From assembly GCA_937928015.1 (NCBI GenBank), contig CALFXA010000113.1:1-37640 (forward strand): DNA of 37,640 nt. The letters are read 5' to 3'. This DNA is from an uncultured Anaerolineales bacterium (GTDB lineage: Bacteria; Chloroflexota; Anaerolineae; Anaerolineales; Villigracilaceae). A program made the position numbers and the translations under genes. The notes beneath the pieces were generated by a model that saw only the letters and a list, made by a program, of their open reading frames with translations, searched no databases and was not told where the DNA came from. Numbering within the stretch: the first letter of the stretch is position 1; every line of letters begins with the position of its first letter. Below are positions 17,481-36,889 of the stretch, in pieces.

Positions 17481-18770
17481 CTACCTGAGCGAGGAGAACG
17501 CCACCACACGAAAACCAAAGTGGTACCAAGGGATTGACGGGGGATTGTATTTGCGAGCGGACACACACGCGACGTCCCGATTGTGATGCCATGATCCGCC
17601 GCGCAGACCCATGCAATCAGCCTCCTTACTATAGACGTTCGCCTGCCATTCCCAGACATTGCCAGCCATATCCAACACTCCAAATGGACTTCTCCCAAGT
17701 GGATAAGCATTGACAAGCGTCGTATGCCAAATTCCACTATCGCTAATATTGGCACGCCGTAGAATTTCTTTTAAAGAGGTCGTGGTCTTTCCAGCCTCAT
17801 CCCAGGGGTAACGCCTGTCTGGTTTTTCACCGCCCGCTGCAATAGTCCACTCAGTTTCCAAGGGAAGACGAATCGCTTGCGGTTTCAAGGCGGGGTTAAC
17901 CCTGACCTCTGGTTGTCGTTCCCAATTCTGACACAACCATTCGGCATACGCGCAGGCTTCATACCATGAGACTCCCACGATAGGGTTGTTGGGATTAGAT
18001 TTTCCAAATTCCCCAACATCCCAATAACGCGGCAATAATACTTTAGAATTTGCCTTCTTCAATTCCTCACGCAGCCAATCTATGCCTGACCTACCCCAAT
18101 CCCCCATCGGTTGACAGTCCTCGTCAAATTTTGGAAATTCCAGCCAATAAATAGGATTGGCAAAATCAGGCGCATTCAAGAAACGCTCGTATTGCGCGTT
18201 AGTGACGGGATATTTGCCGATCCAAAAGGGATAATTCACTTTCGAGCTCGGCTGCGGCGGAATTTCGATGAAGCGATACAAGTCCAGGCTGTCGTCGGCA
18301 ACAGGTTTCGGAGTTTGGGGAACGACTTCCTTTGGGGTGATTTCGATCTTCAGGACCTCGGCGCGCAGTTGTAAAGATTTGATCAACCGCTCGTGCGCGC
18401 CAGGCTCGTAATAATTTACCCACTGGTATTTCTTCAACTTTTCGAAAGAAGGCGTGCAGTCATCGAACTTGACAGGGATGATGTAGATCGCGCCTTCGGG
18501 CTTTTCGTCGGCCGCATCCAGCGCGCGGCGGATTTCCTTGTTGAGGTAGCCCGATTTGGTCACCGAGGTCTGCGACATGCAGATTAGGATAGCGTCCGAG
18601 TCACGCAGGGTCTTGTAAATTTCCAGGTCGAAGTCCTGTCCGGGCAGCAGGTCTTCCGTGTCCATCCAGGGCTGGATCCACGGCTCGGCAGCGAGTTTTT
18701 TGTATAACTCGCGGGTGGCGGGTCGATCTTCGGTGGCGTGACACAGGAAGACGCGCAATTTTCGATTCAT
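17481..18770 (-). CDS. TIR domain - formylglycine-generating-enzyme-like (SUMF1) fusion
   Basis: 429 residues. A TIR_2-type domain spans about 1-140: LRVFLCHATEDRPATRELYK, then the helix with SVTKSGYLNKEIRRAL, where E79 matches the catalytic glutamate position of TIR NADases. A short linker leads to an FGE-sulfatase domain (about 165-429) with PFWIGKYPVTNAQYERFL, VGVSWYEACAYAEWL, RLPLETEWTIAAGG, FGVLDMAGNVWEW, GLRGGSWHH and a C-terminal YHFGFRVV. The cysteine pair of true formylglycine-generating enzymes is not evident, so this domain may bind ligands rather than oxidise. A role in NAD-based signalling or antiphage defence is an inference from the TIR family. Its DNA appears somewhat less GC-rich than the flanks and it is framed by palindromic repeats, which fits later acquisition. 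Preceded on its strand by a terminator and a TATAAT. Confidence 0.88.
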   Translation of the reverse strand: MNRKLRVFLCHATEDRPATRELYKKLAAEPWIQPWMDTEDLLPGQDFDLEIYKTLRDSDAILICMSQTSVTKSGYLNKEIRRALDAADEKPEGAIYIIPVKFDDCTPSFEKLKKYQWVNYYEPGAHERLIKSLQLRAEVLKIEITPKEVVPQTPKPVADDSLDLYRFIEIPPQPSSKVNYPFWIGKYPVTNAQYERFLNAPDFANPIYWLEFPKFDEDCQPMGDWGRSGIDWLREELKKANSKVLLPRYWDVGEFGKSNPNNPIVGVSWYEACAYAEWLCQNWERQPEVRVNPALKPQAIRLPLETEWTIAAGGEKPDRRYPWDEAGKTTTSLKEILRRANISDSGIWHTTLVNAYPLGRSPFGVLDMAGNVWEWQANVYSKEADCMGLRGGSWHHNRDVACVSARKYNPPSIPWYHFGFRVVAFSSLR

Positions 18771-26961: not shown

Positions 26962-27471
26962 ATGACTGACCAGAAATCAAAGACATTGTCCCGCCGCGAC
27001 ACCATCAAGGTCCTAGCAGCCGCCGTCGGCGCGGGAGCTTTGGCCAATCTGCCTGGCAAGTGGACCAAGCCCGGCCTGGACTTCGGTGTCCTCCCCGCGC
27101 ACGCGCAGACTTCGCAGACCGTCCACACCCTGGTAGCGGGTGCGGATGCACAGATCGACAACAACGTGGAACAGCCGCCCATCACCATCAATAGTACGGT
27201 GCAAATCACACCGCCCACGCCTGGCATCCTGATGCGCTATTCCATCGTGCTCGATGAGCCTCAGTTTGGGGTGCGTCCAACCGCCATCGATATCCCTGCC
27301 GAAAGCACGGGGACCGTCCCCACCAACGATACCGGGTTGGGGACCCTGCCCATCACCTACTCGAACCTGTGGTTCAGTTCCACCATCACCGTCACTTGGA
27401 GTTTCGAGAATCCCAGCGACGGCACGGGCACCGACGACCAGGTCTTCAAGACCCCTGAACTCCCCAAGTAA
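26962..27471 (+). CDS. Tat-leader secreted protein 1 (beta-rich, unknown function)
   Basis: 169 residues. The leader has LSRRDTIKVLAAA (twin arginines R11-R12), a hydrophobic core, KWTKPGLDFGVLPAHAQTS and an AxA signal-peptidase site (AHA, 46-48), predicting cleavage before Q49. The mature part of about 120 residues is rich in Thr, Val, Ile and Pro and looks like an Ig-like beta sandwich (INSTVQITPPTPG, RYSIVLDEPQFGVRP, STITVTWSFENPS). It has no cysteine. It shares its leader, but nothing else, with the next Tat-leader gene. Codon use is GC-rich like the host. Directly downstream lies a truncated pqqD-like fragment. Function unknown; it may be the substrate of the PqqD/kinase/nucleotidyltransferase set. 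Confidence 0.85.
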   Translation: MTDQKSKTLSRRDTIKVLAAAVGAGALANLPGKWTKPGLDFGVLPAHAQTSQTVHTLVAGADAQIDNNVEQPPITINSTVQITPPTPGILMRYSIVLDEPQFGVRPTAIDIPAESTGTVPTNDTGLGTLPITYSNLWFSSTITVTWSFENPSDGTGTDDQVFKTPELPK

Positions 27472-27488
27472 CCCAAGGTTACATACAA

Positions 27489-27602
27489 GACATCGTCCCT
27501 ATCCCCGTCGAAGGATTCCACATGGAGACCCTCGACGGGGAAACTATTTTGCTCCATCTTGCCCGCAGCCTCGTCATCTCCGAGAGTGAAATCACGGATT
27601 AA
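27489..27602 (+). pseudogene. Truncated PqqD-like gene remnant
   Basis: Reading from 27489 gives DIVPIPVEGFHMETLDGE, then TILLHLARSLVISESEI, ending at TAA (27600-27602). This aligns over about 35 residues with the intact PqqD-like protein at 28308 (IPAPVDGFYLETLDDEIVLL...). Shared are the P-V-[E/D]-G-F-x-x-E-T-L-D-x-E core and LLH. It breaks off just where the intact copy continues into the winged-helix part (IGALIWRLCDG). No start codon fits the 5' end. The fragment is GC-rich, unlike the AT-rich intact copy, so it looks like the left-over 5' end of an older resident pqqD gene. Confidence 0.75.
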
Positions 27603-27684
27603 GATTCTCGTTCCTTTCTCATTTTTATTATCACTTTGGTGAAAAATAGTCTGCTCTAATCCATACTTTGTTCACTTCTGCATG

Positions 27685-27693
27685 TGATATAAT
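27685..27693 (+). promoter_or_regulatory. Extended -10 promoter of the second Tat-leader gene
   Basis: TGATATAAT (TGnTATAAT, a perfect extended -10) at 27685-27693 in an AT-rich gap, 39 bases before the ATG at 27732. No convincing -35. Confidence 0.6.
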
Positions 27694-27731
27694 TGCAAAA
27701 AAAATTAGGAAACCTTTTTGGGAAAAATAAA

Positions 27732-28250
27732 ATGGATAACAAATCTTCAAAAAATTTGTCGCGTCGTGATGCACTAAAAATACTGGCAGCGGCTGCAGGA
27801 GCTGTCACGTTAGCAAATCTTCCTTCAAAGTGGAATACCCCTGAATTAACTGCCGGGGTGTTGCCCGCACATGCGCAAACGTCCATGACTCTTGTTTGCG
27901 ATCCTCCCTTTTACCTTTACATTCCACCTCAGTATCTCCCCGTTTATGCCTATGGTTATCTTGGAACCACTTTTCCAGGTGTAGGGGCAAATTTTGAGAT
28001 CGATTACGAATTGTCAGCTTCCAATGGTGTCCATATTATTTCCCCATTGAATGGAATAGCCATAACTGATGCATCGGGTTATGCAAGGACGCCTTTGACT
28101 GAGGTAACGGTATTTACCGTTCCAAGCACTTTAACTTGTACATTTAGTACAGGCGGACTATCATGTTCAGCTGTTGTTGAATTCTTAGATATATCCACCC
28201 CAGGGAACAACGCAGGCAACAAGCCCTTTACTGGTTCATGGAACGACTAA
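27732..28250 (+). CDS. Tat-leader secreted protein 2 (beta-rich, unknown function)
   Basis: 172 residues. The leader is aligned without gaps to that of the upstream paralogue: LSRRDALKILAAAAGA, then SKWNTPELTAGVLPAHAQTS, twin arginines R11-R12, W34 and AHA 46-48, with about 34 of the first 51 residues identical. The mature part differs completely (CDPPFYLYIPPQ..., IDYELSASNGVHI, NGIAITDASGYARTPL) and resembles an Ig-like (Big-type) domain with three cysteines. A TTG 13 codons upstream is also open, but the ATG at 27732 matches the paralogue's start. The DNA is markedly more AT-rich than the neighbours. It is followed after 57 bases by pqqD. Confidence 0.85.
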   Translation: MDNKSSKNLSRRDALKILAAAAGAVTLANLPSKWNTPELTAGVLPAHAQTSMTLVCDPPFYLYIPPQYLPVYAYGYLGTTFPGVGANFEIDYELSASNGVHIISPLNGIAITDASGYARTPLTEVTVFTVPSTLTCTFSTGGLSCSAVVEFLDISTPGNNAGNKPFTGSWND

Positions 28251-28307
28251 AAGCCAAGGGATGTTCCTGGCATGTGACCAGATGAGATAGGATATGACTT
28301 CATAACT

Positions 28308-28571
28308 ATGACCATCCCTGCACCTGTTGATGGTTTCTATCTTGAAACGCTGGATGATGAAATTGTTTTACTACATCCTCACCAGAACATCATGATCTAT
28401 AGCAACCAAATAGGTGCTCTCATTTGGCGTTTGTGCGATGGGCATCGATCCGTTGACCAGATTGTCGAAATCTTGGGTGAGGCCTATCCTGAAGATGCCG
28501 ACCAAATTCGAGTGGATGTTACCACCTTCATACAATCTCTCATAAGTCGAGGCGCGTTGGAAGAAAAGTGA
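28308..28571 (+). CDS. PqqD-like peptide-binding (RRE) protein
   Basis: 87 residues with the RiPP recognition element fold of the PqqD family: an N-terminal beta hairpin (PVDGFYLETLDDEIVLLH), then IGALIWRLCDGHRSVDQIVEIL (helices of the winged-helix part), and FIQSLISRGALEEK. PqqD-like proteins bind leader peptides and present them to modifying enzymes. In front of an HprK-like kinase and a PF14907-type nucleotidyltransferase it matches the layout described as the HPr-rel-A system. Its stop overlaps the GTG start of the kinase. It has a truncated sister copy at 27489-27602. Confidence 0.88.
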   Translation: MTIPAPVDGFYLETLDDEIVLLHPHQNIMIYSNQIGALIWRLCDGHRSVDQIVEILGEAYPEDADQIRVDVTTFIQSLISRGALEEK

Positions 28572-29401
28572 ATTTAGATATTGCACAAGATCGGTCGATA
28601 TTTTTTGCAGGTAATGCAATTAAAGTAAGTACCGACCTTTCATCTCTTCTAGACTTAATTGACTCACACCTCAAATATTGCATTACCGAACCTCAGCCAG
28701 TTGTCGCAGAGTATAAACTTACCGTCGCGGGTGATAATACGTTCTTATTATCACACAACGACGGTAAGTTCTTTTTTAAAGGGACTTTGCAAGTTTTGTT
28801 TTACTTAATGCAGGATGGAATTACACGCCTGAACGGAGCTGCCCGCCTGGGACCTGTCATCCACGCCGCGGCGCTGACCCACCATGACCGAGGCTTGATT
28901 CTGTGTGGCGAAAGCGGTAGCGGCAAATCCACGCTGACGGCCTGGCTGGCCGCTCATGGTTTCGGCTACCTGACCGATGAGGTTATCTGCCTCGAAGGGG
29001 AGGAAATCAGCGGCCTGACGCGTTCCATCGTCCTCAAACGCGGATCAGCCTTCGTCTGGCAACACTGGCTGGGAAATCCACCTGCCGAGGGTTTTCTGCA
29101 ATTCGCCGACGGTACCACCTGGATCAACCCAACCCTCTTCGGCGCGGATGTATGTTCGCGGGCAACGCCGCACACCCTGATTTTCCCCCGTTATATTCCC
29201 AACGCAGCATTGCACGTCGAGCCGCTCAAGCCTGCCGATGCGCTCTTCCGATTAATGAAGGGATTGGTCAATGCGCGCAACTTCCCCGACGGCGGCCTGG
29301 CCGCGGCCTCGCGTCTCGCGAAGCGGGTCCACGCCTGGCAGCTCACCTATTCCGACCTCGAAAGCGCCACCGCATGGCTTCAGCAAACGCTCGCGGACTA
29401 G
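28568..29401 (+). CDS. HprK-related kinase
   Basis: 277 residues, GTG start overlapping the pqqD stop. The P-loop CGESGSGKST (Walker A, 114-122) follows IHAAALTHHDRGLIL, and LTDEVICL (D137) is the likely Walker B region. The C-terminal half resembles HPr kinase/phosphorylase but lacks a clear HprK signature for HPr. In lasso-peptide clusters, such kinases phosphorylate a C-terminal serine of the peptide; here the target is unknown. The first about 80 codons are AT-rich and the rest is GC-rich, with a sharp change near 28820-28850. This is the sign of a recombination joint inside the gene. Confidence 0.85.
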   Translation: MNLDIAQDRSIFFAGNAIKVSTDLSSLLDLIDSHLKYCITEPQPVVAEYKLTVAGDNTFLLSHNDGKFFFKGTLQVLFYLMQDGITRLNGAARLGPVIHAAALTHHDRGLILCGESGSGKSTLTAWLAAHGFGYLTDEVICLEGEEISGLTRSIVLKRGSAFVWQHWLGNPPAEGFLQFADGTTWINPTLFGADVCSRATPHTLIFPRYIPNAALHVEPLKPADALFRLMKGLVNARNFPDGGLAAASRLAKRVHAWQLTYSDLESATAWLQQTLAD

Positions 29402-30489
29402 CTTATCGTCTGCTTGCGCTTTGCGCCCGCGCCTCGGGCCATGACGCGCTCTACGCCGAACTCACGCGCCAGCTTGCCAATTTCCACAATTGGCAGGAAC
29501 TGATCGCGCAGGCTGAAGTCCACGGGATGGCGCCGCTATTTTGGCATCACGTCCAGCAGTCGGGCGCGGAGATTCCCGTCGATGTGGCCCGCATGCTCAA
29601 GGGGTTATATCTGCGTCATCGGCGTAACAATCAAGTCCACGCGCAGGTGTTGCTCGAGATCGTCGATCTGCTCCAGGCGGCGGATATTCATCCGCTGGTG
29701 CTCAAGGGACTCGGCCTGGCCTACAGCCTTTATCCCGACCCAGCCCTGCGCCCAATCAGCGACCTGGACCTATTGCTCCAGCGCGACGAGATTCGTCCCG
29801 CACTGGAGGTGCTTCGCACGGCCGGATTCTCCACGCCTGCCCTACCCCTCGACGATGGGCCCGCTCCCAAAGAACTGACGGTCGACTCACCCCCGCGCGA
29901 TGGACTGCGCGTTCACGTAGAATTGCACCATTACGATCCACGCCAACGCGACGATGAGTTCGCGGGCTTTGCCTCTCCGCCGCAAGCGATCCGAGTCGAG
30001 GGTGGCACGGTCCTCATCCCCGCGCCGATGGACAACCTGGACTATCTCACACGGCATTTCACCCGCCACCTCTTCGAGGCGCGGACCGATAAGCCCCTGC
30101 AACTCAAATGGATTGCCGACATCCTCAGCCTGGTCGAGCAGCACGCGGAAAGCATCGACTGGTCACGGCGTACAGAATTTCTGCAACGGCTGGATGTCTT
30201 CTACAGTCTCACGCCGTTGCCTGAGTCGCTGCGTGGCATGATTCCTCTGGCGCAAAATCCAACGCCCGAGGGCGTGAATCAATATCCGCAGGGCTGGCCG
30301 CAGGAGAAGTTCGAGCGCAGTCGACAGGTTGGGTTAGGGAATTTCGTCGCGCAGACATTCCGCGCCCCCTCGGAGTGGTGGCTCAGGCTGTATTATGGGA
30401 TCAGGCCCGGGTCCACGGGCTGGTACGGGCAGGTCGTCCACCGCGCGAGACTGCTCGGGCTGATGATCCGCCGGCTGGCACGGAGATAA
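29374..30489 (+). CDS. Nucleotidyltransferase-family protein (NTP_transf_5 type)
   Basis: 371 residues. The core LVLKGLGLAYSLYP, then ALRPISDLDLLL is the metal-binding nucleotidyltransferase signature (two aspartates in SDLDLLL) of the uncharacterised PF14907 group, followed by ELHHYDP and a helical C-terminus. The family is often next to HprK-like and PqqD-like genes and to lasso or peptide clusters; the nucleotide acceptor is not known. The open frame extends upstream, but the ATG at 29374 gives MASANARGLAYRLLALC and overlaps the kinase gene by 28 bases, as expected for a tight operon. GC-rich, host-like codon use. Confidence 0.85.
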   Translation: MASANARGLAYRLLALCARASGHDALYAELTRQLANFHNWQELIAQAEVHGMAPLFWHHVQQSGAEIPVDVARMLKGLYLRHRRNNQVHAQVLLEIVDLLQAADIHPLVLKGLGLAYSLYPDPALRPISDLDLLLQRDEIRPALEVLRTAGFSTPALPLDDGPAPKELTVDSPPRDGLRVHVELHHYDPRQRDDEFAGFASPPQAIRVEGGTVLIPAPMDNLDYLTRHFTRHLFEARTDKPLQLKWIADILSLVEQHAESIDWSRRTEFLQRLDVFYSLTPLPESLRGMIPLAQNPTPEGVNQYPQGWPQEKFERSRQVGLGNFVAQTFRAPSEWWLRLYYGIRPGSTGWYGQVVHRARLLGLMIRRLARR

Positions 30490-32021: not shown

Positions 32022-34868
32022 ATGCGTTCCAGACCCTCGAACCTCTCCTCTTATCTTGTGACCACGTTGCTGCTTGCGGCACTGTTGGCTGGCTTCCTGC
32101 CCGGGGCCTCTGCCCAGGCGGCAGGCGCGACGGCGTTTACCAAAATCGAGCTGATCCCAAACATCGAGACCGTCGGCGTACTCGTCAGCGGGATGGCCCT
32201 GCCCAAGTCGGCTACGTTGATGTACCAGAAGAATGGTGAAACAGACTGGCGCACGGGCCAGCCCGTTGTGCTCAGCAACAACGTACGTCTGGCAGGCAGT
32301 CTGTTCGGACTCGCGCCCGCCACGCAGTACAACGTCAAGGTGGTGGCGGGGACGACCGAGATCAGCGGTTCGGTCACGACCCAGCCCGAGGAGTTGCAGT
32401 TCACCCCCGCGGGAGTCCTCTACGTGGACGACGATGCCGCGGCAGGCGGAGACGGCTCCAAGTCCAAGCCCTTCAAAACCATCCAGGAGGCCGTCAACCG
32501 TGCCACGCCCGGGACACAGGTGCTGGTGGCCGACGGCGTGTACCATGAAGCGGTCAGTTTCCCCACCTCGGGCGCAGAGGGCAAGTGGATCCAGGTCAAG
32601 GCCGAGGGTAGCGGCGCCATCCTCGATGGGTCGATCACCCTCAGCGGCAACATCTGGAAGGTCTATCAAAAGAACAAGATCTGGTACACCACCTCGCCCT
32701 ACGTCAAATACCTGGCCCGCGACGGGCAGCGCTTCTATAACTATGACAACATGAAAGGCCTGACGGACTCGCGCGGCCACAACAAGGTACCGATGAACGA
32801 GGGCTGGTACATGCGCCCCAACAGCAGCCGCCTCTACGTCCGCAGCCTGGACGACCCGTCCAAACACACCTGGCAGGTGCCGCGCTACAACCATGCCTTC
32901 GACGTCTCGGGCCGCGACTGGATCTGGATCGAGGGCTTCGAGATGCGCTACTACGGCGTGATCGACGGCTGCGGTGTGTGCGCGAAGAACGCCTCGCATC
33001 TGGTGGTGCGCAAGAACAAGATTCACAACATGCAATTGGGCGTGTATGTCAACTGGACCGGGACCGAGTCCCAGGGCAACGACACGCGCATCGAGTCGAA
33101 CGAGATCTCCGATCCGCCCGTCAACGAGTGGCCGTGGGCTGCGGTCAAAGGCTCGACGATGGAGGGCACGGCCATCGTCCTGCGCGGACATATCGGGGCC
33201 ATCGTCCGCGACAATGAACTGCATCACATCTTCAACGGCGTGTACTCGGGGACGTCCGCTTCCGCGGCGCTCGAAAATTACGCCGTCGCACTGGATGTGG
33301 ACGTGTACGACAACCGCATCCACCACATCGGGGACGACGCGCTCGAACCCGAAGGTGCCGCCGTCAACCACCGCTTCCGCAACAATCGGATCGACTCGAC
33401 CCTGGTCGGCGTGTCGTTTGCACCTGTCACGCACGGCCCTGTGTGGGTGCTGCGCAATCAGATCAGCAACTTCACCAGCACCAGCCTCAAATGGGACTTA
33501 TACTCCGACGGCCCGGTCTTCCTTTATCACAACACCAGTTGGACCAACGCGAAGGACCTCAACGCGATGAGCGTCATCCGCCCCGTGTACAACGTGACCA
33601 TGCGCAACAACATCTTCCAGGGCAATGGCTTCGCCTTCGAGAGTCCCATCACGGGGCTGACGGGTCACAGTTGGGATTACGACAACTGGTACACCACCCG
33701 CACGAGCGGACCGCACTTCAAATGGGAGAAGCTGTCTTACAACACCATCGCGGAGTTGTGCGCCGCCACCACGCTGGAATGCAACGGACATGAGTCCGCG
33801 CCCGGCTTCGTCAACCCGACGGGCGGTGACTTCAGTCTGCAAACTGCCAGCCCCAACGTGGACCGTGGCGTGTTGCTGCCAGGCATCGACGATGACTTCC
33901 AGGGCAACGCGCCCGACCTCGGGGCCATCGAGTCGACCTTCGACCGCGCCCCCACGGTGACGTCCATCCTGCGCGTCGACCAAAATCCCACCAACGCCGC
34001 TAGCGTGAAGTTCACGGTCAAGTTCTCGGAGACCGTCAGCGGGGTGGACGCGGGCGACTTCGCCCTCTCGACCAGCGGCAGCCTGACGGGTGCATCCGTG
34101 ACCGAGGTCAGCGGCGCGGGAGCTGAGTACACCGTCAGCGTGGACACGGGCAGCCAGGACGGCGGCATCAGCCTCAAGGTCCAGGACGACGACAGCATCC
34201 TCGACTCAGTGGGCAATCCGCTCGGGGGCGCAGGAACAGGCAACGGCGATTTTTCCGCAGGGGAGGCTTACGCGGTCATTAAGTCCGCGCCCATCGACCT
34301 CGCCTCGGCCACCTTCGTCTCCAACAAGACCAACGACGGGTACGTGATCGAGTCGAGCGAGAACAGCAATGTCGGCGGCGGGATCGACGCCACCGCCGCC
34401 ACCTTCTACGTGGGCGATAACGCCGAGGACCGCCAGTTCCGCGCCATCCTCGATTTCAACACCGCCTCCCTGCCCGATAACGCGGTGATCGTCCGCGCCA
34501 CGCTCAAGATCAAACGCCTGAGCGTGACGGGCACCGACCCATTCCTCACGCACCAGAAGCTGGTGGTGGACATCAAGGGCGGGACCTTCGGGCGCGGCGT
34601 GCTGGAGGTGCCCGACTATCAAACCGAAGCCAGCCTCGACATGGCGGGCTTCTTCCCCAACACCCCCGCCGACAACTGGTTCGCGGCGACGATGAGCGAA
34701 CCCGCCCTGGAATTCGTCAACAAGACGGGCGAGACGCAATTCCGCCTGCGCTTCCAACTGGACGACAACGACGACATGGGTGCCGACACCATCAAGTTCT
34801 ACAGCGGCGACGCCGCCACGGCGGCCTATCGCCCGGTGTTGGTGGTGGAGTATTACGTGCCGCAATAA
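32022..34868 (+). CDS. Secreted right-handed beta-helix protein with Ig-like and carbohydrate-binding-like C-terminus
   Basis: 948 residues. A Sec signal peptide covers about 1-34 (LVTTLLLAALLAGFLPGASAQA). A short fibronectin-like domain (about 35-125) is followed by DUF1565/pectate-lyase-type parallel beta-helix repeats (about 130-610: LYVDDDAAAGGDGSKSKPFKT, then IHNMQLGVYVNWTG, LHHIFNGVYSG, IHHIGDDALEPEG). An Ig-like domain lies at about 645-755 (TVTSILRVDQNP..., DDSILDSVGNPLGG), and the C-terminal beta-sandwich at about 765-948 resembles CBM96/DNRLRE modules (RAILDFNTASLPDNAVI, ending YRPVLVVEYYVP). It is probably a polysaccharide-binding or -degrading exoprotein. No catalytic residues of a named lyase or hydrolase family can be assigned. 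No LPXTG or membrane anchor. The upstream frame is open, but the ATG at 32022 follows GAAGGA and starts the signal peptide. Confidence 0.87.
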   Translation: MRSRPSNLSSYLVTTLLLAALLAGFLPGASAQAAGATAFTKIELIPNIETVGVLVSGMALPKSATLMYQKNGETDWRTGQPVVLSNNVRLAGSLFGLAPATQYNVKVVAGTTEISGSVTTQPEELQFTPAGVLYVDDDAAAGGDGSKSKPFKTIQEAVNRATPGTQVLVADGVYHEAVSFPTSGAEGKWIQVKAEGSGAILDGSITLSGNIWKVYQKNKIWYTTSPYVKYLARDGQRFYNYDNMKGLTDSRGHNKVPMNEGWYMRPNSSRLYVRSLDDPSKHTWQVPRYNHAFDVSGRDWIWIEGFEMRYYGVIDGCGVCAKNASHLVVRKNKIHNMQLGVYVNWTGTESQGNDTRIESNEISDPPVNEWPWAAVKGSTMEGTAIVLRGHIGAIVRDNELHHIFNGVYSGTSASAALENYAVALDVDVYDNRIHHIGDDALEPEGAAVNHRFRNNRIDSTLVGVSFAPVTHGPVWVLRNQISNFTSTSLKWDLYSDGPVFLYHNTSWTNAKDLNAMSVIRPVYNVTMRNNIFQGNGFAFESPITGLTGHSWDYDNWYTTRTSGPHFKWEKLSYNTIAELCAATTLECNGHESAPGFVNPTGGDFSLQTASPNVDRGVLLPGIDDDFQGNAPDLGAIESTFDRAPTVTSILRVDQNPTNAASVKFTVKFSETVSGVDAGDFALSTSGSLTGASVTEVSGAGAEYTVSVDTGSQDGGISLKVQDDDSILDSVGNPLGGAGTGNGDFSAGEAYAVIKSAPIDLASATFVSNKTNDGYVIESSENSNVGGGIDATAATFYVGDNAEDRQFRAILDFNTASLPDNAVIVRATLKIKRLSVTGTDPFLTHQKLVVDIKGGTFGRGVLEVPDYQTEASLDMAGFFPNTPADNWFAATMSEPALEFVNKTGETQFRLRFQLDDNDDMGADTIKFYSGDAATAAYRPVLVVEYYVPQ

Positions 34869-35647: not shown

Positions 35648-36889
35648 ATGAACATCTGGACCAAGATCAAGCAGTATCCCAAACTCGGCCTGGTCATCCT
35701 GGCCTTTGTCGCCTTCGTCGCCCTGGGATTGCCAGACGGCCTGCTGGGGGTGGCCTGGCCCTCGATCCGAACGGGATTCTCCATCCCTTTGGATGCTCTC
35801 GGGATTTTGCTGATCGCAGGCACGGCGGGCTACATGACCTCCAGCTTTTTGAGCGGCCCGGTAGTGGCGCGGATCGGCGTCGGCAGGGTCCTGGCCGCCA
35901 GTTGCGCCATGACAGGCACCGCGTTGCTGGGCTACACCCTCGTCCCGCAGTGGTGGATGATGGTCCTTCTGGGCGTGGTGGCAGGCCTGGGGGCGGGCGC
36001 CATCGACGCCGGGTTGAATACCTACGTTGCGGCGCATTTCAGCGAGGGGCTGATGCAATGGCTGCATGCCAGTTGGGGCGTCGGAATCACCCTGGGCCCG
36101 ATCATCATGACCATGGGGCTGACGGCCACCCACTCGTGGCACACGGGCTATCGCATCGTCAGCGGATTCCAGTTTGCGCTGGCCGCCTGCTTCGTGCTGA
36201 CCCTGGCGATGTGGAATCAAAAAGACAAGTCGGCGGAGAAAGAGGAGACCAAACGCCTGACCGACTACAAGACGCCCATGAGCGAAACCTTCCGCCAGCC
36301 CAGGGTGTGGTTGAGCATCAGCCTGTTCCTGATGTATGTCGGCGGGGAAGCCACTCTGGGCACCTGGGTCTACACCCTGTTGACCGAATCGCGCGGAGTG
36401 GATCCGACGGCGGCGGGCTTCTGGGCAGGCAGTTATTGGGGCACCTTCACCATCGGGCGCATCCTGGCAGGGCTGTTTACCAAGCGGGTGGGAGTCAACC
36501 GCCTGGTGACGGGCGGTCTGGTGGGGGCCGTGGTAGGTGCGCTGCTGCTGGTCTGGAATCCGTCTGAGGCGGTCAACCTTCTGGCAGTGACGCTGATCGG
36601 TTTTTCCATCGCGCCCATTTTCCCTGCCATGATGTCGGGCACCAGCACACGGGTGGGTGACCATTTCGCCGCCAACACCATCGGCATGCAAATGGCGGCC
36701 GCGGGACTGGGGACGGCCACCATCCCTGGCCTGATAGGCGTTTTCGCCCGTCGGATTTCGCTGGAGATCGTCCCGGTTTGCCTGCTGGCAGTATATGCAG
36801 GGCTGCTCGGTTTGTACTTATTGTCGGCGAAATACTCGGCCCTGCAACCTGCGGCAGCATTGAAATCCAATGAGCAATCGGCTCAATAA
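35648..36889 (+). CDS. MFS transporter
   Basis: 413 residues with about twelve hydrophobic helices and a charged loop in the middle (KDKSAEKEETKRLTDYKTP, about 197-215) splitting two halves of six. The N-half has GLPDGLLGVAWPSIR and the FSEGLMQWLHASWGVG segment typical of sugar-type or FucP-like MFS proteins. The substrate is unknown. TetR-controlled and directly followed (23 bases) by a family 3 glycoside hydrolase, so uptake of a sugar released by that enzyme, or export of a toxic compound, are the two likely roles. Confidence 0.88.
   Translation: MNIWTKIKQYPKLGLVILAFVAFVALGLPDGLLGVAWPSIRTGFSIPLDALGILLIAGTAGYMTSSFLSGPVVARIGVGRVLAASCAMTGTALLGYTLVPQWWMMVLLGVVAGLGAGAIDAGLNTYVAAHFSEGLMQWLHASWGVGITLGPIIMTMGLTATHSWHTGYRIVSGFQFALAACFVLTLAMWNQKDKSAEKEETKRLTDYKTPMSETFRQPRVWLSISLFLMYVGGEATLGTWVYTLLTESRGVDPTAAGFWAGSYWGTFTIGRILAGLFTKRVGVNRLVTGGLVGAVVGALLLVWNPSEAVNLLAVTLIGFSIAPIFPAMMSGTSTRVGDHFAANTIGMQMAAAGLGTATIPGLIGVFARRISLEIVPVCLLAVYAGLLGLYLLSAKYSALQPAAALKSNEQSAQ

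Follow-up and report, generated by a model that had tools for sequence, protein, structure and literature searches.

Here we describe a gene cassette on a contig of an uncultured Anaerolineales bacterium (CALFXA010000113.1, assembly GCA_937928015.1, family Villigracilaceae; the whole 37,640-nucleotide stretch analysed is referred to as the window). The cassette is probably a tailoring system of the kind known from ribosomally synthesized and post-translationally modified peptides (RiPPs), made up of a discrete RiPP recognition element (RRE), an HprK-like kinase and a PF14907 enzyme, with whole proteins exported by the twin-arginine translocation (Tat) pathway as its substrates. Its genes lie on the + strand in the order Tat1, truncated PqqD, Tat2, PqqD, HprK-like kinase and PF14907 enzyme, the last three overlapping successively by 4 bp and 28 bp. 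The features are as follows, with signed positions counted from the presumed signal peptidase cut.

26962..27471, + strand: Tat1, Tat-leader protein of 169 aa (TIGR01409 above cut-off)
26962..27114, + strand: Tat1 leader plus QTS, with RR 11-12, W34 (-15), P37 (-12), L39 (-10), AHA 46-48 and Ser51 (+3) (alignments A2, A4)
27495..27602, + strand: truncated PqqD relic, about 33 N-terminal residues and then a stop (similarity to intact PqqD)
27732..28250, + strand: Tat2, Tat-leader protein of 172 aa with a cargo unlike that of Tat1 (TIGR01409 above cut-off)
27732..27884, + strand: Tat2 leader plus QTS, candidate acceptor Ser51 at 27882-27884
28308..28571, + strand: PqqD-like RRE protein (PF05402, E 1.2e-19)
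28568..29401, + strand: HprK-like kinase (TIGR04352, E 8.5e-27; His99, P-loop GESGSGKS 114-121, Asp137-Glu138)
29374..30489, + strand: NTP_transf_5 enzyme (PF14907, E 1e-42) with an RPISDLDLLL (D-x-D) motif

Coordinates and profile matches agree with a preliminary description of this DNA, which had placed two Tat-leader proteins, a PqqD-like protein, an HprK-like kinase and a nucleotidyltransferase in a row, the last three overlapping, and had correctly given the leader 51 residues. It had also reported no lasso cyclase, B2 peptidase or transporter; a Pfam scan of the 28 larger open reading frames (ORFs) of the window likewise found no B2 peptidase (PF13471), asparagine-synthetase-type cyclase, ABC exporter or S26-type signal peptidase, but a major facilitator superfamily (MFS) transporter is encoded at 35648-36889, 5 kb off the cassette.

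Drawing on the observed linkage, leader motif and spacing, invariant Ser/Thr, catalytic residues and kinase clade laid out below, and on analogy with characterized systems, we infer a sequence of binding, phosphorylation, elaboration and cleavage. The precursor would be made with a Tat signal whose hydrophobic part is separated from the cleavage site by a long segment bearing W(-15)xxP(-12)x[L/I/V](-10). The PqqD protein would bind this W-P-L stretch, possibly delaying export in the manner of Tat proofreading chaperones, and would present the precursor to the kinase for phosphorylation of Ser(+3) (Thr in a few leaders). The PF14907 enzyme would elaborate the phospho-Ser, probably with a hexose or nucleotidyl group, which glycosyltransferases may extend in some Desulfobulbales, and Tat export followed by signal peptidase cleavage after A-H-A would leave the tag on the third mature residue.

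Both the linkage of leader gene and kinase cassette and the leader motif are near certain. A profile built from 32 kinases returned at least 77 loci in named genomes, the weakest of which are probably chance matches; among the matches listed, the cassette has neighbouring leader genes at each of the seven loci from Chloroflexota (L001-L007), at two from Desulfobulbales (L008, L009) and at none of the remaining 68. When 400 Chloroflexota genomes were scanned, the leader was found in six and the kinase (E below 1e-100) in seven, i.e. those six and G255, where a 3.3-kb contig ends within the upstream gene; the part of it that is visible, 98 residues, matches leader protein P0151 at its C-terminus. 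No leader was found in the 393 Chloroflexota genomes without a strong kinase match, seven of which have weak kinase matches only (E 1e-16 to 2e-29). The same pattern was seen across 146 genomes from the order of Desulforhopalus (Desulfobulbales), with the leader in 13 and the kinase (E below 1e-30) in 15, namely those 13, G425 and G537, and with no leader in the 131 genomes lacking a kinase at this limit. Relaxing the limit to E 1e-8 gave a kinase-like match in 26 of the 146 genomes, of which 13 have the leader and 11 have weaker kinase matches and no leader. A leader without a kinase occurred in no genome of either sample. Fisher p values for co-occurrence were 1.3e-12 (Chloroflexota) and 8e-17 (Desulforhopalus order), to be taken as a guide only, since the genomes are related and the E limits were chosen post hoc; the scans scored the best first-look candidates (17 per genome in two of them, 6 in one), so misses are possible.

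The recurrence of this linkage in other genomes, posed by the preliminary description as a check, was borne out in two phyla (6 of 7 kinase-bearing genomes in Chloroflexota, 13 of 15 in the Desulforhopalus order), and invariable adjacency, posed along with it, holds for the seven listed Chloroflexota loci and for 11 of the 13 Desulforhopalus-order leader genomes, failing in G455 and G505. In those 11, at least one leader gene adjoins, or lies one small ORF away from, a PqqD, kinase, kinase-glycosyltransferase or PF14907 gene; a 153-codon ORF separates the leader from the PF14907 gene in G473, and the neighbour of the leader gene is on the opposite strand in G009 (Desulforhopalus singaporensis), a genome with ten leader matches, mostly scattered and one with an internal stop. 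A denser sample of 151 genomes from the order of G001 added one case, G602, in which a span of 8 kb contains two leaders, PqqD, PF14907 enzyme and kinase. Outside these groups, 299 Pseudomonadota genomes gave one weak leader match, ending at model column 38 of 49, and 198 genomes sampled from the phylum of G009 gave a strong leader match only in G009 and G438, five others yielding weak matches that end at column 41 or earlier. At E 1e-3 the leader was found in none of the 21 genomes of other phyla behind the listed loci, some of which have weak kinase matches; such an empty search is weak evidence by itself. Two observations on D. singaporensis stand apart: about 330 bp separate a phage terminase large-subunit gene from a leader gene on its downstream side (L178:3640-5610, contig C43), and genes for a tetratricopeptide repeat (TPR)-sulfotransferase and a RimK-like ATP-grasp protein (L009:5090-8842) lie near the PqqD-kinase pair.

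The leader motif was delineated in 113 distinct leaders (67 database homologues, the two of the window and 44 from the loci), which were aligned by anchoring W..P and P.[HFYQ]A and leaving the gap between them free, so that W(-15), P(-12), P(-4) and A(-1) are fixed by the search pattern; four rows without the motif were set aside, three of them truncated by the end of the locus and one departing after W..P. All 113 have P(-18), W(-15), P(-12), P(-4) and A(-1), with 15 residues from W to the last A, and independent of the search pattern are this spacing, P(-18) in 113/113, H(-2) in 112/113 and L, V, I, F or A at -10 in 107/113. The leader ends in PxHA (112) or PxFA (one), followed by xx[S/T], where +3 is Ser in 110 and Thr in three leaders. 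At +1 and from +4 to +12 the combined frequency of Ser and Thr is 5-21%, versus 94% at +2. A profile lacking the last three positions, run on 35,993 sequences (the ORFs of the loci and 72 database proteins), recovered 116 distinct leaders that reach A(-1), largely overlapping the set of 113, with Ser at +3 in 113, Thr in three and other residues in none; clustering at 70% identity left 37 leaders, 36 with Ser and one with Thr. Desulfobulbales leaders are 33-46% identical to those of the window, and the motif is ungapped across both phyla. When part of a Desulfobulbales leader protein was used to search for homologues, only five close relatives were returned. One frame of G539 (L142:1441-1701) is normal through W..P and then leaves the motif, possibly as a decayed copy.

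The PqqD protein quite probably docks on the Tat signal through the W-P-L stretch, as judged from sequence. Its nearest solved structure by sequence is TbiB1 (5v1u, E 8.5e-6), a lasso RRE. On TIGR03859 (pyrroloquinoline quinone (PQQ) biosynthesis PqqD) it scores 46.2 bits, barely above the cut-off of 46 (L003 and L188 fall below, and L202 reaches 51.2), so that automatic annotation could label it a PQQ protein. In a crystal structure described in the study of linear polyphosphorylated peptides (LPP) (PMC13381572), the PbaA lasso leader sits in the PbaB1 RRE cleft via W-15, P-12 and L-10, and the W(-15)xxP(-12)xL(-10) of the window leader is the same motif in the same register.

The kinase groups with the leader in its own phylogeny. 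Its score on TIGR04352 is 94 bits against a cut-off of 200, so it is not the equivalog by score; four relatives score 78-102 bits, and the true members L014 and L020 score 339 and 297. Its nearest named relatives are from Chloroflexota. The structural model (predicted local distance difference test (pLDDT) score 92.8) has an HprK/PEPCK fold according to Foldseek and VIA-align; the top 50 VIA-align matches are phosphoenolpyruvate (PEP) carboxykinases only, HPr kinase chains appear in Foldseek from E 1.4e-5, and the best solved match of the sequence profile is HPr kinase 3tqf. For the tree, an initial 164 rows were reduced by 22 whose best match was short (L006 among them) and identical rows were merged, leaving 103, from which five duplicates and 29 rows, nearly all from Sphingomonadales and relatives, were removed, giving 69 kinases. 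One branch (bootstrap 100, Shimodaira-Hasegawa-like approximate likelihood ratio test (SH-aLRT) 99) unites 30 rows from leader genomes of the two phyla with one of G537, 31 in all; the other side holds 37 rows without a leader, nine of which (L013, L019, L033, L043, L044, L052, L056, L066, L067) were judged by their loci alone, and a second, distant G473 paralogue. Strict monophyly of the 30 leader rows is rejected by an approximately unbiased (AU) test, G537 falling among them. The catalytic His, P-loop Lys and Asp are retained in all 27 stand-alone kinases of the clade examined; in the glycosyltransferase-fused kinases the His is lost in all three and the P-loop is altered or missing in two. 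As a separate observation, a PF13471 peptidase lies about 5 kb or less from another HprK-like match in G418 (contig C85) and G473 (contig C18), probably marking separate kinase-bearing lasso clusters.

By analogy with two characterized kinases, phosphorylation of Ser(+3) by the cassette kinase is likely, this residue being the predicted acceptor because of its position, its invariance and the precedents of BsfK and LppK. Both of these come from RRE-kinase-nucleotidyltransferase clusters. BsfK phosphorylates core Ser3, is boosted by the RRE, tolerates S3T and is not blocked by T2A (PMC10368454), and LppK also phosphorylates core Ser3 (PMC13381572). A further sugar or nucleotidyl elaboration of the phospho-Ser, again by analogy, has a chance a little short of even. 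PsmN was credited with one or two hexoses on phosphorylated Ser in vivo, a host glycosyltransferase being a possible alternative source (PMC9266682). The PF14907 enzyme matched no solved structure by sequence; in a D-x-D check, 16 of 28 homologues fit the pattern and 11 of the other 12 show an RPxxDxD stretch, L188 being the remaining one. Beside a leader gene, three Desulfobulbales genes fuse a kinase-like domain to a family 2 glycosyltransferase (GT2) (L183:3359-6610, L171:1258-3681, L189:4141-6021), the L183 fusion additionally carrying GT25 and sulfotransferase domains. Multi-glycosyltransferases of 1497 and 1328 residues are encoded beside the leader in G438 and near it in G543, respectively, four GT2 genes follow the leader in G514, and the G602 cassette (L202, contig C540) lies within a polysaccharide cluster with flippase, WecG-, GT2- and Wzy (O-antigen-ligase)-type genes. 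These glycosyltransferases, fused to or near the cassette or leader in several Desulfobulbales and G602, suggest glycan chemistry. Two proposals of the preliminary description are sharpened by these data, and in both the event itself is still predicted: recognition of the Tat leader by PqqD gains a known RRE-docking motif in register, and phosphorylation or nucleotidylation of the secreted protein becomes phosphorylation as a first step, by analogy, with the acceptor narrowed to Ser(+3).

The presumed substrates themselves have the marks of Tat-exported proteins, with a twin-arginine signal (TIGR01409 above cut-off) in both Tat1 and Tat2 and TatC found in all 23 related cassette-bearing genomes tested. 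The Tat1 cargo is modelled as an all-beta domain of eight strands (pLDDT 82.5 overall and above 90 across most of the cargo), for which Foldseek returned generic beta-sandwich matches only (template modelling (TM) score at most 0.44). Beyond +3 the cargo varies, from this predicted all-beta domain to an F5/8 type C domain (L006) and others of no known family, and some Desulfobulbales leader frames are longer, up to 337 aa.

Several points weigh against the proposed mechanism. About 18 residues lie between the end of the hydrophobic part and the presumed cut, a longer gap than is usual in signals. Leaders lie away from the cassette in G455 and G505, and no leader was found in G537 and G425 in spite of a kinase at E below 1e-30; the G425 kinase is outside the leader clade and that of G537 is 234 bp from a contig end. 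Almost every leader was retrieved by a query containing the xxS part, the exceptions being the five close relatives and the two leaders of G602, which also have Ser at +3. None of 10 flanking genes scanned across 8 Chloroflexota loci is a glycosyltransferase. Part of the linkage may be inherited synteny, judging from shared neighbours: a spermidine synthase stands beside the cassette in the window and L217, and Big_12 or beta-helix proteins lie near it in the window, L001 (Big_12) and L004 (beta-helix/Big_12). The linkage is not mainly plain synteny, because most of the scanned flanking genes differ between the loci. LppK rejects S3T, whereas three leaders here have Thr(+3), and LppN deletion had no visible effect in the LPP study, which weakens the elaboration step (PMC13381572).

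Thr(+2), found in 104 of the 113 leaders, is another possible acceptor. Together with a further Thr (column T121) present in at least 90% of an alignment of 33 mostly beta-type cargoes, it favours a reading in which PqqD binds the leader and the modified residue is Thr(+2) or lies elsewhere in the cargo, Ser(+3) being kept for signal peptidase or export; signal peptidase does touch the first mature residues. We consider this unlikely, as +2 varies to G, S, V, Q, C and A and +3 only to Thr, Ser51 is the sole fully invariant Ser/Thr past the presumed cut (alignment A4), the cargo differs among leaders, and Ser3 is the shown site in two related systems, with T2A leaving BsfK active (PMC10368454, PMC13381572). 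Improbable to a somewhat greater degree is that the kinase homologue is not a protein kinase, and that the exported protein directly receives a small molecule or glycan made or transferred by the cassette, with no phospho-Ser. PEP carboxykinases do outrank HPr kinases in Foldseek and VIA-align, and the pseudokinase-glycosyltransferase fusions and the polysaccharide cluster of G602 would fit such a role; the HprK/PEPCK fold is, however, common to both enzymes, so that function is not told by fold, the best solved profile match is an HPr kinase, His, P-loop and Asp-Glu are retained, and the characterized lasso and LPP homologues are Ser kinases (PMC10368454, PMC13381572).

Less probable still are two readings that detach the leader from the cassette. 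Leaders distant from any cassette (G455, G505 and most of the ten in G009) could indicate that the Tat-leader proteins are functionally irrelevant neighbours and that the cassette acts on another, unseen peptide, but leader presence tracks the kinase genome-wide in two phyla while most scanned flanking genes differ, and the RRE motif is in register within the leader. That the leader is an ordinary Tat signal, whose lineage-specific conserved c-region was kept by descent, is comparably remote; the signal is alanine-rich with RR, and six long open frames, probable ordinary Tat proteins, weakly match the leader model. These matches end at columns 29-44 of 52, before the PAHA-x-x-S part, the motif is ungapped in two phyla despite 33-46% leader identity, and it was seen in none of the 393 and 131 genomes without the cassette.

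Tailoring of Tat-exported proteins by the cassette has close parallels in known systems. LPP precursors are of 35-200 aa with a conserved N-terminus and variable C-terminus, and are often encoded in polysaccharide loci (PMC13381572). The window and its relatives share with them the discrete RRE, HprK-like kinase and NTP transferase, the conserved leader and variable C-terminus (169 and 172 aa in the window, with some Desulfobulbales frames exceeding the range), the aromatic-xxP RRE motif, a presumed signal-peptidase-type cleavage and the predicted acceptor Ser3. They differ in that LPP are mostly from Bacillota and the present cassettes from Chloroflexota and Thermodesulfobacteriota; in the LPP leader, YxxPxVLxHQxIxFETxxS with Y-16, versus WxxP in all 113 leaders within a Tat signal ending in AHA; in the dedicated SpI-like LppS and MsbA-like exporter, neither family being found among the 28 window ORFs, with other loci partly scanned; and in a Tat1 cargo predicted to be a folded domain. 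Lasso systems of the paeninodin/pseudomycoidin type and of Bradymonadales likewise combine B1 (PqqD-like), an HprK-like kinase K and a nucleotidyltransferase N (PMC9266682, PMC8498205, PMC10368454), and are alike in the PbaA leader (W-15 xxP-12 xL-10) and in BsfK acting on Ser3 with the help of B1. Here, in contrast, no cyclase or B2 stands beside the cassette, the proposed substrates are exported proteins, mostly of about 145-340 aa, and export would be by Tat. PF13471 (lasso B2) scored above cut-off in 10 of the 23 cassette-bearing genomes, in each case either on a different contig or over 90 kb away from the leader cassette; no macrolactam synthetase (asparagine-synthetase-like C protein) occurs in the 28 window ORFs, relatives not having been searched genome-wide for it. 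The HPr-rel-A cassette (TIGR04352/TIGR04353) also pairs an HprK-related kinase with a PqqD-like partner, and is set apart by the low TIGR04352 score of the window kinase and the absence of leaders from the 21 genomes of other phyla. The Tat proofreading chaperones TorD and DmsD are cytosolic and bind the Tat signal until maturation is complete; they have an unrelated fold. In the present case docking would take place on the segment that links the hydrophobic part to the cleavage site, and maturation would consist of a covalent modification. By its gene content, the cassette is one that would work like LPP and B1-K-N lasso tailoring, but without the LPP leader motif or a lasso B2 or cyclase beside it.

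RRE-guided modification is known for peptides that are turned into natural products, and the same motif and register occur here inside an export signal on many cargoes, which would carry the logic of RiPPs over to a pathway that tags and exports proteins, with the site predicted to the residue, Ser+3. The HprK-like/PF14907 pair, for which the LPP study did not identify a final product (PMC13381572), would also gain a substrate and a biological context. A Tat signal with an RRE-kinase cassette was not described in the titles and abstract openings of the literature searched on this combination, with most subscription papers outside the search. More tentatively, and in our estimate rather less likely to be right than to be wrong, the cassette may represent a general covalent tagging of exported proteins, in which the RRE docking motif is built into the Tat signal, one PqqD both holds back export and directs the kinase to Ser(+3), phospho-Ser anchors glycans, the inactive kinase-glycosyltransferase fusions of Desulfobulbales (one with a sulfotransferase) act as readers that bring in sugar enzymes, and up to ten scattered substrates are served per genome.

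Within the window, the PqqD relic after Tat1 shares 45% identity with the intact PqqD over residues 3-35 of the latter (E 1.3e-10), pointing to a past tandem duplication of a Tat-PqqD unit; candidate PqqD relics in the gaps of L002 and L003 were not supported. A metallo-beta-lactamase-fold gene on the - strand lies 5' of the cassette, and genes for S-adenosylmethionine decarboxylase and spermidine synthase lie 3' of it. Rfam and tRNA scans of the window found nothing. Further 3', positions 32022-34865 encode a large right-handed beta-helix protein (PF13229). Elsewhere in the window, a gene at 17481-18770 on the - strand joins a TIR domain (PF13676) to an FGE-sulfatase-type domain (PF03781).

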